Source: Clavibacter michiganensis
GTDB taxonomy: Bacteria > Actinomycetota > Actinomycetes > Actinomycetales > Microbacteriaceae
DNA length: 64,000 nucleotides
Direction: 5' to 3'
NCBI RefSeq assembly: GCF_021216655.1
Contig: NZ_CP080437.1
Span: 2,542,001 to 2,606,000, forward strand
Shown: in pieces, positions 25,208 through 27,954 of the stretch
How the letters are laid out: every line of letters starts with the position of its first letter
How positions within the stretch are numbered: position 1 is the first letter of the stretch
The notes under the pieces: model-generated
Databases searched by the model: none
What the model saw: the letters and a program-made list of their open reading frames with translations, nothing else
Told to the model about the DNA's origin: nothing
Position numbers and translations under genes: made by a program

Positions 25208-25265
25208 ATCCTAGTGATGACATTCCGTGTCATGGGTGTGTATGGTGATGACACGCGATGTCATC
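25208..25265. promoter_or_regulatory. Divergent promoters with two TGACA/TGTCA operators
   Basis: Operator 1 is ATGACA-N5-TGTCAT (25217-25233) and operator 2 is GATGACA-N5-TGTCATC (25247-25265). Both are perfect and their centres are 31 bp (three turns) apart. Operator 1 covers the spacer of the leftward leaderless promoter (-10 TAGGAT, 25213-25208). The rightward promoter has -35 ATGACA (25217-25222) and -10 TATGGT (25241-25246), so operator 2 covers its start site. TetR binding is inferred. Confidence 0.75.
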
Positions 25266-25296
25266 GGGCAGCGCGATCCGCAGATCGGAGAACCGC

Positions 25297-26418
25297 ATGC
25301 CCACCGAGACCGCCGCCTGGCTCGCCTCGTCCGCCGCCGACCTCACCGTCGGACCCGCGCCGCGGACCGCTCCCCGGGAGGGCGAGGTCGCGATCCGCGT
25401 GCGCGCCGTCGCGATCAACCCGCTCGACACGATGAAGCAGCACATGGGCGACCTCATGTACCGCTGGCTCCCGCACCCCGCGGTGCTCGGCGAGGACGTC
25501 GCGGGCGAGGTCGAGGAGGTCGGCCCCGGGGTCACGCGCTTCGCCGTCGGCGACCGGGTCGTCGCGTACGCGGTCGGCATGGAGAAGGGGCGGCGACACG
25601 CGCCGGAGGGCGGGTTCCAGTCGCGCGTCGTCGTGCGCACCGATCTCGCGTCGCCGATCCCGGATGCGATGCGCTTCGAGGACGCCGCCGTCCTCCCGCT
25701 CGGGATCTCCACTGCCGCGTCCGGCCTCTTCGGCGCCGGCCAGCTCGGCCTCCGCATGCCCGACGCGACCACCCCGTCGACGGGCGAGACCGTCGTGGTG
25801 TGGGGCGGATCCACGAGCGTCGGCATGAACGCGATCCAGCTCGCGGTCGCCGCCGGGTACGACGTCGTGACCACCGCGTCCCCGCGCAACCATGAGCTCG
25901 TGACGGGTCTCGGCGCGACCGGTGCGTTCGACTACCGGAGCCCGACGGTCGTCCGCCACATCACGGCGCACCTCGCGGCGAGCGACCGGAAGGTGGCGGG
26001 CGTGCTCGCCATCGGCACAGGATCCGGCGGCCCGGCCGTCGACATCGCCATCGCGACGGGCGCGACGCGGGTCAGCATGGCGAGCCCGCCCGTGTCGTTC
26101 GAGACCCTCCCGCGCGGTGGCCGCGTCGGGCTTCCGCTCGTGCGCCTCGGCATCCGCATGGGCACCGCGACCCCGGCCCTGATGATCCGCGCGCGCGCCA
26201 GGGGCATCCGCGCGACCTTCATATGGGGCAGCGCCCTCATGCACGACGAGGTCGGCCCGATGCTCTGGGAGCGCTTCCTGCCGGCCGCGCTCGCGGAGGG
26301 CCGCTACGTCGCGGCGCCGGCGGCCGAGGTGGTCGGCACCGGGCTCGAGGCGATCCAGCCGGCGATGGACCGCCTGCGCGCGGGCGTCTCGGCGCGAAAG
26401 CTGGTGGTCGCGCTCTAG
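25297..26418 (+). CDS. Medium-chain (zinc-type) alcohol dehydrogenase/quinone reductase family protein
   Basis: 373 residues. GEVAIRVRAVAINPLD and HPAVLGEDVAGEVEEVGPGVTRFAVGDRVVAY are the N-terminal GroES-like fold; VVVWGGSTSVGMNAIQLA is the NAD(P)-binding motif. Zinc-ligand cysteines are missing, so it is more like the zinc-free quinone or enoyl reductases. I start at ATG 25297 (GGAG six bases upstream). It is induced, presumably, when the divergent TetR protein releases the two operators. The last codons (KLVVAL then TAG) are the sequence duplicated at 27938. Confidence 0.87.
   Translation: MPTETAAWLASSAADLTVGPAPRTAPREGEVAIRVRAVAINPLDTMKQHMGDLMYRWLPHPAVLGEDVAGEVEEVGPGVTRFAVGDRVVAYAVGMEKGRRHAPEGGFQSRVVVRTDLASPIPDAMRFEDAAVLPLGISTAASGLFGAGQLGLRMPDATTPSTGETVVVWGGSTSVGMNAIQLAVAAGYDVVTTASPRNHELVTGLGATGAFDYRSPTVVRHITAHLAASDRKVAGVLAIGTGSGGPAVDIAIATGATRVSMASPPVSFETLPRGGRVGLPLVRLGIRMGTATPALMIRARARGIRATFIWGSALMHDEVGPMLWERFLPAALAEGRYVAAPAAEVVGTGLEAIQPAMDRLRAGVSARKLVVAL
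26398..26414 (+). repeat. Left copy of a 17-bp direct repeat flanking the AbiE-like cassette
   Basis: AAGCTGGTGGTCGCGCT encodes the end of the dehydrogenase (KLVVA). A copy with one mismatch lies at 27938-27954, 1,540 bp away, on the other side of the helix-turn-helix/nucleotidyltransferase cassette. It looks like a target duplication or recombination scar. See the second copy. Confidence 0.5.
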
Positions 26419-26421
26419 CGA

Positions 26422-27219
26422 CCGCGATCTGCCGGATGACCGGGATCTGCGCGCCGGATGCGCCCGCCTGTCCGAGGTGCGGGGTGCAGCGAGCGGAGGC
26501 TCGGTGAAGGCCAGGCGCAGCCGCTCGGAGACCGAAGGGTCCACGCCCGCCAGGCGCGCATACGTGGCGTCGCGCCGGATCAGGGCCGCCGCAGTCAGCG
26601 CACGACGGCGTTCGGTCGCGGTGATGTTCGCGCCCGCATCGTCTCGTCGCGTCACGAGCGCTCCGAGGGTGGCGATGTCGACGAGGTGCCGCGTGGTGTC
26701 GTCTCCCGTGATCTCGAGAGCTGCGGCTTTCGAGAGGATCGCGCCCTGCAGCGTCGGGCGGCGGATGGTCCCGACCTGGCCTTCGACGCGGAAGAGGACA
26801 TCGGCCGATCGGTCGAGTGCGCCCTGCGCCCCGGGAGCGGAGACCGTGGTCCCACCACCGGCGCCGCGGCGGCCGTCGGCCCGTTCGCCGAGGAACCTCG
26901 GGATCAGCACGTCGATGAGTGCCTCCCCGCGGACCCATCGATGCTGATGTCCTTCGAAGCTCGTGCCGTCCGGCTCGAAGCCGATGTCGCGCAGCGCCGT
27001 CGTGAACGTCATGAGCATCCGCGGATGAGCGCGGACGTCGAGGGCGGTGTCCGCATCCACCGTCGGGCGATTGGCGTGGGCGCCGCGTTCCCAGCACAGT
27101 GCCTGGATCATCTGGCCACCGACGAGCGCCCACCCGGTCGGGATCCGCTCATGGACCTCGAAGAGCGCATGCCATGCCTCTGCCTGGGCGCGCCGGAGAG
27201 GGGGTGCCTCGACGATCAT
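26422..27219 (-). CDS. Nucleotidyltransferase of AbiEii/MenT-like type, own stop codon missing
   Basis: About 240 recognisable residues. ALVGGQMIQ near residue 35 and VDADTALDV near residue 60 give the GG and DxD motifs of minimal nucleotidyltransferases; ALIDVLIPRFLGER and a C-terminal helical region follow. The ATG at 27219 overlaps the stop of the helix-turn-helix gene (ATGA). Similarity to a normal protein ends near 26480, but no stop follows in frame; the frame runs on to 25261 antisense to the dehydrogenase. I give 26422 as the boundary of the unshared part. Either the 3' end was lost during insertion or the product has a nonsense tail. Family members modify tRNA or act as type IV toxins. 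Confidence 0.65.
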
Positions 27220-27869
27220 GCGACCTCCCCGAGGAGATGCGCGGCCGCCGCGCGTTCGCGCGGCCCCCGGTGCTGGGACAGGTCGGCGATCAGCTCCCCG
27301 AGCGGCAGGGGCCGCTGGACGGGACGCTCCTGCACGTGCAGGAGGACGTTCGGACGATCGCCCGAGACGAGCAGGTACTCGTGGATGATCGGGTCGAGAT
27401 CGTCGACGTGCACGTGCGCCTCGAGCTCCCGCGCGTCCGACAGGCCCGATCGGAGGTCGCTGATCCCCCCGGCCACGAGTCGAGGATCCGCACGCAGGTC
27501 CTCCAAGTCCTCGTCCGCCACGAGGAAGGACCGGGCCGCGGGCCGAGCGCTGCGCATCCAGGCTGCCAGCACCTCCGCTGCGTTCGGGGCGTCTCGGAGC
27601 TTCGTGAGACGCCCGATCACGCGACTCGCTTCGCTCGCGGACAATCCGGCGCGCCATGCGTCGTCCCCGGAGAGGCGCGCGAGCAGCGCGCGCACCGAGC
27701 GCGACGACAGCGGCCGCCCGACTTGATCGTGCCGAGCCTCGGCGGCGTCGATGACCCACCTGCCCGCGATCTTGCGGGCAGGTAGCACGCCGGCCGCGGC
27801 CGCCGCCTGGACCCTGCGAGCGGAGATGCTCTGCCCCTTCGCGTATTCGGCCGCGCTGATCTCCGCCAT
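27216..27869 (-). CDS. Helix-turn-helix protein, probable antitoxin partner of the nucleotidyltransferase
   Basis: 217 residues. The N-terminus (ISAAEYAKGQSISARRVQAAAA, then VLPARKIAGRWVID) is an excisionase/MerR-like helix-turn-helix of the DNA-reading type. The C-terminal half (LVADEDLEDLRADPRLVAGG; DPIIHEYLLVSGDRPNVLLHV; LPLGELIADLSQHRGPRERAAA) is a separate domain that I do not recognise by name. It overlaps the nucleotidyltransferase by 4 bases, as in AbiEi/AbiEii and MenA/MenT operons. A 34-bp palindrome covers its promoter, fitting autorepression. RBS AGAGGAGG precedes the ATG. Confidence 0.68.
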   Translation of the reverse strand: MAEISAAEYAKGQSISARRVQAAAAAGVLPARKIAGRWVIDAAEARHDQVGRPLSSRSVRALLARLSGDDAWRAGLSASEASRVIGRLTKLRDAPNAAEVLAAWMRSARPAARSFLVADEDLEDLRADPRLVAGGISDLRSGLSDARELEAHVHVDDLDPIIHEYLLVSGDRPNVLLHVQERPVQRPLPLGELIADLSQHRGPRERAAAAHLLGEVA

Positions 27870-27886
27870 GTCGCCTCCTCTGTGTG

Positions 27887-27920
27887 ACCAGAATCATACG
27901 GTAGCGCGAATGAATCTGGT
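27887..27920. promoter_or_regulatory. Operator/promoter of the AbiE-like cassette
   Basis: ACCAGAATCAT and ATGAATCTGGT form an 11-base inverted repeat with one mismatch around a 12-base centre. On the minus strand a good -10 box, TATGAT (27898-27893), lies inside it, about 24 bases before the ATG at 27869. Binding by the cassette's own helix-turn-helix protein is inferred. Confidence 0.65.
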
Positions 27921-27937
27921 AGGCATCGGGTTCGGAG

Positions 27938-27954
27938 AAGCTCGTGGTCGCGCT
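27938..27954 (+). repeat. Right copy of the 17-bp direct repeat flanking the AbiE-like cassette
   Basis: AAGCTCGTGGTCGCGCT matches 16 of 17 bases of the dehydrogenase 3' end at 26398-26414, and both copies are followed within 4 bases by CGACC. It is not part of any gene here. The pair brackets the whole cassette and its operator. Confidence 0.5.

Follow-up and report, generated by a model that had tools for sequence, protein, structure and literature searches.

Two overlapping genes of Clavibacter michiganensis, which we name P1 and P2, look like an unlabelled relative of the AbiE and Men toxin-antitoxin systems, and in our judgement they probably constitute a toxin-antitoxin-like module of that kind. 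They lie in a window of 64,000 nucleotides (G000:C1:2542001-2606000, the whole stretch of DNA analysed) from a genome of 3.38 Mb in three contigs, and positions below are counted from the first letter of that window. Both genes are on the minus strand: P1 (27216..27869) encodes a helix-turn-helix (HTH) protein of 217 amino acids, proposed as antitoxin and autorepressor, and the first 240 residues of P2 (26500..27219) form a nucleotidyltransferase core, proposed as toxin. The stop codon of the former and the start codon of the latter share an ATGA at 27216-27219, and a purine-rich, ribosome-site-like sequence can be seen by eye ahead of both start codons. An earlier sequence-only reading had described this overlap, a 217-residue first protein with an excisionase/MerR-like N-terminus and a nucleotidyltransferase with GG and DxD motifs, all of which our analysis bears out. 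Computation showed how the genes are laid out, which fold and catalytic residues P2 has, to which HTH type P1 belongs, that the operator recurs with covariation, that the distribution is accessory and that loss of P2 is one-sided.

A nucleotidyltransferase and its helix-turn-helix partner

As the sequence-only reading had anticipated, the predicted model of P2 has a nucleotidyltransferase fold of the DNA polymerase beta type in structure comparison. In an alignment of 42 sequences, the GG of motif I (residues 34-35; 27115..27120), R51, D55 and D57 of motif II (R51-P-T53-V-D55-A-D57, with the DAD at residues 55-57; 27049..27069), a third aspartate, D103 (26911..26913), and the K164 of motif III (26728..26730) are all invariant, and T53 is kept in at least 90%. 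Motifs I and II of the AbiEii/DUF1814 proteins (hG[G/S]-x-DhD and the motif II arginine) are therefore present in P2, with a spacer of 19 residues between them, which is longer than the 15 residues reported for this family (MenT). The spacing of T53 is that of the MenT1 phospho-acceptor. Arp2/3 and other low-Z folds in the structure re-alignment of P2 were set aside.

P1 begins with a winged HTH of the BldC/excisionase/MerR type (residues 1-53; 27711..27869), whose closest structures are BldC and Xis, and in Pfam the window protein matched HTH_17 only (E 0.038, below the family cut-off), while AbiEi_4 was matched in three of 20 P1 relatives (best E 0.0049). Its C-terminal domain (residues 117-217; 27219..27521) gives weak structural matches to an AbiEi/nucleotidyltransferase-like fold. 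Because a profile comparison of this domain with P2 gave no sequence homology, the idea of a fold shared by both proteins is drawn from those weak structural matches only. Among other matches of P1, a model for ribosomally synthesised and post-translationally modified peptides (RiPPs), far below its cut-off, and phage excisionase, terminase family and 'mad1' matches, all confined to the HTH region, were set aside.

What the sequence-only reading missed is the end of P2. There is no stop near residue 240, the usual end in other genera, in which the close relatives finish at 238-248 amino acids, and the frame stays open to 25261, giving 652 amino acids; the run-on of about 400 extra codons (25261..26499), which lies beyond residue 240 and is modelled with low confidence, is antisense to a plus-strand gene (25258-26418) that looks by eye like a dehydrogenase. 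The standard end is found in none of the five genus copies, own included, that have one or both flanks in common with the window: P2 has 267 amino acids in G009 and G012, an in-frame stop in G008, and is absent from G017. In the window copy the end of P2 is unusual, though the core is under purifying selection (ratio of nonsynonymous to synonymous rates, dN/dS, about 0.2 against G009 and G012); since the usual stop has been lost, this copy may be decaying.

A recurrent putative operator

A 34-bp palindrome ahead of P1 forms a putative operator (27887..27920, minus strand) of two 15-bp arms, ACCAGATTCATTCGC and CCGTATGATTCTGGT, around a 4-bp centre, with 12 of 17 positions paired across all 34 bp and a -10-like TATGAT in its right arm (27893..27898). 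The sequence-only reading had placed it correctly over this promoter. By itself the palindrome is of marginal significance (p about 0.017 in a test with 300 shuffles), and 12 or more pairs were reached by about 6% of 1,650 random 80-nt stretches from related loci; it becomes convincing because the relatives carry one at the corresponding place. For 27 loci, and later for 21 more, mostly from divergent subgroups, we looked within the 80 nt preceding P1 for the best dyad of 34 bp around a 4-bp centre, and it reached p ≤ 0.05 (300 shuffles) in 19 of the former and 10 of the latter, that is, in 29/48, tallies in which closely related copies are each counted, so that the loci are not independent. 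A control making the same choice of symmetry on the 1,650 random stretches gave a combined Fisher p of 4e-6 for 14 representatives. The dyad lies 0-20 nt ahead of the P1 start codon in the first 27 loci, 23 of which hold a -10-like TAYnnT inside the right arm.

Moreover, the half-sites change from group to group. The motif reads ACCAGAATCATTCGC, or differs from that by one change, in the window and its near relatives; G008 shows ACCACAATCATTCGC and, in its other arm, the corresponding change, and other groups have TACACATCCCTACCG, CACACAAG..., GACACAAGTATTTCC or TGAACTTCTATTGTC, each group with its own HTH sequence. Among the 14 representatives, complementarity between own arms averages 11.1/15, versus 7.6 between arms of different loci, a mean reached in 0 of 20,000 permutations, although this figure is inflated because the stretches had been picked for symmetry. 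The operator recurs and covaries across loci. In one locus (L040 of G161) the order is inverted, P2 then P1, with a palindrome in the gap between them; the second pair of that genome, L085, has the usual order.

An accessory cassette with one-sided loss

The two genes sit in an accessory cassette of about 1.5 kb (26415..27937) that is absent from the empty site of G002, G004, G010, G011, G014 and G015, where the sequence to about 26424 resumes at 27937. It is bordered on the plus strand by 17-bp direct repeats (26398..26414, where the dehydrogenase-like gene has its 3' end, and 27938..27954), identical at 16 of 17 positions. This sequence flanks the cassette on both sides in the window and in G017, is present once in four of the six empty-site loci (L066, L067, L071, L072; pattern search) and occurs on the left side only in G009; the pattern was not found in G008, G012, G014 or G015. 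At the insertion point, the dehydrogenase-like gene ends in codons (26398-26418) other than those of the empty-site relatives.

With P2 as query, four of 17 same-genus relatives matched, and ten of 60 genomes overall, own included. A P1 profile found the full-length gene in six of 18 genus genomes, own included (G000, G008, G009, G012, G016, G017), and the remaining four genus matches are weak and cover at most the N-terminal half. Both window neighbours recur in G009 and G017, in G008 the dehydrogenase-like gene is shared together with a gene further to the right, and in G012 just the right-hand neighbour. The pair of G016 (L100) is more distant and lies at a different place, with the operator and HTH class of Pseudoclavibacter, which points to a separate acquisition. 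In the wider family P2 was matched in 44 of 249 genomes (E 1e-6) and P1 in 42 (E 1e-12), and in a phylum sample P2 was matched in 16 of 296, always counting the own genome; named carriers include Curtobacterium, Frigoribacterium, Pseudoclavibacter and Arthrobacter. Strong flank similarity is confined to loci of one genus, and three Clavibacter neighbour genes tested were not found in the loci of other genera. The pair thus has an accessory distribution. A phage origin is unsupported (one weak match among 50,697 phage records), and plasmid relatives show about 28-30% identity among the 20 listed of 30 matching records (72,556 searched). A plasmid of a faecal Bifidobacterium longum strain (L147) carries a distant pair with a 4-base overlap, annotated just as 'helix-turn-helix domain-containing protein' and 'hypothetical protein'.

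P2 is broken or missing beside a whole P1 in nine loci, and no broken P1 was seen beside a whole P2 among 91 loci (77 distinct places). P2 has an in-frame stop in G008 and G220, frame changes or deletions in G018, G021, G096 and Frigoribacterium Leaf186, and is absent from G017, where the junction falls between 26453 and 27220, and from G105 and G130, which may be one event; some genomes are drafts, in which single frame changes could be errors, but the assemblies of G008, G018 and G021 consist of 2-4 contigs. In G183 and G240 both genes seem damaged, since the P1 matches start only at profile positions 34 and 47. The count leaves out distant P2-like genes with no P1 match (L093-L095, L098), fragments (L096, L097, L099), contig ends (L006, L092), less clear cases of seemingly truncated P2 (L090, L091, L141), partial P1 matches with no listed P2 (G025, G080) and weaker P1-like matches. 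P2 served as the bait in the initial surveys, a bias against finding this very pattern. One-sided loss of P2 fits a toxin kept with its antitoxin and argues against P1 as the toxin. Beside the whole P1-like genes of G105 (L152) and G130 (L155) adjoin, by eye, a Fic-like and an ATPase-like gene, respectively.

Known systems and alternative readings

P2 shares with the MenT toxins of the MenAT modules (MenT1 Rv0078A, MenT3 Rv1045, MenT4 Rv2826c) the nucleotidyltransferase fold, the GG, an arginine and S/T ahead of D-x-D and the lysine of motif III, and MenT is likewise the toxin of a two-gene module; identity to MenT1 is 15% over 176 residues in the structure re-alignment. With AbiEi/AbiEii (COG5340-DUF1814, type IV), the pair has in common a two-gene operon with the HTH gene first and the nucleotidyltransferase second, and an inverted repeat over its own promoter, as predicted at P1, although the AbiE operator consists of two 23-bp inverted repeats 3 bp apart and here there are two 15-bp arms 4 bp apart. 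The overlapping operon and the accessory distribution are also general toxin-antitoxin traits. On these models, P1 would bind the 34-bp palindrome that covers the -10 element, thereby repressing its own operon, as the operator suggests, and P2, judging from fold and motifs, would transfer nucleotides to a cellular acceptor. By analogy with MenT, for which nucleotide addition to tRNA ends is described (PMC10435456), the likeliest acceptor would be tRNA 3' ends, and translation would stop; P1 would neutralise P2, probably through its C-terminal domain, if it resembles AbiEi. That P1 represses the operon and neutralises P2, that P2 is toxic, what its substrate is and whether the pair has a part in defence are all inferences.

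Other observations set the pair apart from these systems or speak against the operator. Instead of +DxxD, motif IV of P2 is R177-H178-L-V-D181 (26677..26691), an R-H-x-x-D in which an invariant histidine replaces the first aspartate in the 42 sequences, and it differs in this from MenT. None of the family profiles searched recognises the window protein: it has no match to Pfam PF08843 even at E 1, a model matched by six of the 42 aligned family members (best E 2.1e-4), nor to the PADLOC candidate PDC-M21B, which matches five of the 42 (best E 2.6e-6); the term PDC-M21 was not found in the ten open-access papers listed. The AbiEi-type N-terminal winged HTH was not recognised by sequence in window P1 with Pfam, its HTH being of the BldC/excisionase type. 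Concerning the operator, 12 of the first 27 loci score just 9-11/17, and several subgroups have no significant dyad (e.g., L053, L054, L057, L060, L062, L063, L064). The interpretation of the sequence-only reading, a type IV-like pair, is partly supported: operon order, P2 fold, operator and accessory pattern agree with it, and motif IV, PF08843 and the AbiEi HTH do not. Because motif IV lacks the first aspartate, we call P2 'DUF1814/MenT-like' and not a family member, and for the motif IV and Pfam results of P2, together with the HTH of P1, we do not file the pair as AbiE/MenAT. Two AbiEii genes that exceed the Pfam cut-off are present in the same genome, one on the chromosome (G000:C1:2370967-2371665, L145) and the other on a plasmid-like contig (G000:C3:13080-13778, L114), about 95% identical across 800 nt; one of them has an annotated AbiEi in identical plasmid records, and plasmid records of C. 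michiganensis match 3.7 kb of contig C3 with 100% identity.

A bolder reading, possible but rather doubtful, is that nucleotidyltransferase toxin-antitoxins of this kind form a separate lineage, widespread among actinobacteria, whose antitoxin would couple an HTH of the BldC/excisionase type to a nucleotidyltransferase-like domain without catalytic activity and neutralise the toxin at T53; Men toxins are phosphorylated at the matching position. It is unlikely that P2 is a small-molecule enzyme, for instance antibiotic-modifying, in a detoxification operon under a local HTH repressor: the order of its Foldseek matches speaks for this and slightly lowered our confidence in a toxin-antitoxin module, and ANT(2'')/LnuA share the minimal nucleotidyltransferase fold, but their Z is lower in the re-alignment and P2 comes after an HTH gene whose stop codon overlaps the P2 start. 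We also find improbable a functional non-toxic regulatory or metabolic unit undergoing ordinary accessory-gene decay, since losses fall on the P2 side only (9 vs 0) despite the P2 bait, and the P2 fold is near known toxins, even if orphan P1 genes could be plain regulators and toxicity is our inference. Reversed roles, with P2 neutralising a toxic P1 as in HEPN/MNT, are very improbable: nucleotidyltransferase antitoxins such as MntA are known, but P1 has an HTH, no HEPN model in Pfam matched it or 20 relatives (alignment A2), and nine loci keep it whole with P2 broken or gone, which is unexpected for a toxin deprived of its antitoxin.

About one in six of the sampled family genomes (44/249) match the P2 profile, yet the window pair is unnamed in the copies of Pfam, NCBIfam and PADLOC searched, and no description of it was found in the open-access literature searched. 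If the separate lineage were true, toxin and antitoxin would be active and inactive versions of one fold. If P1 and P2 are a toxin-antitoxin module, they would add a further antitoxin architecture to this toxin fold, published MenA antitoxins being already described as diverse, and they would offer a natural series of co-changed operator/HTH pairs, in which DNA recognition and neutralisation could be tested separately.
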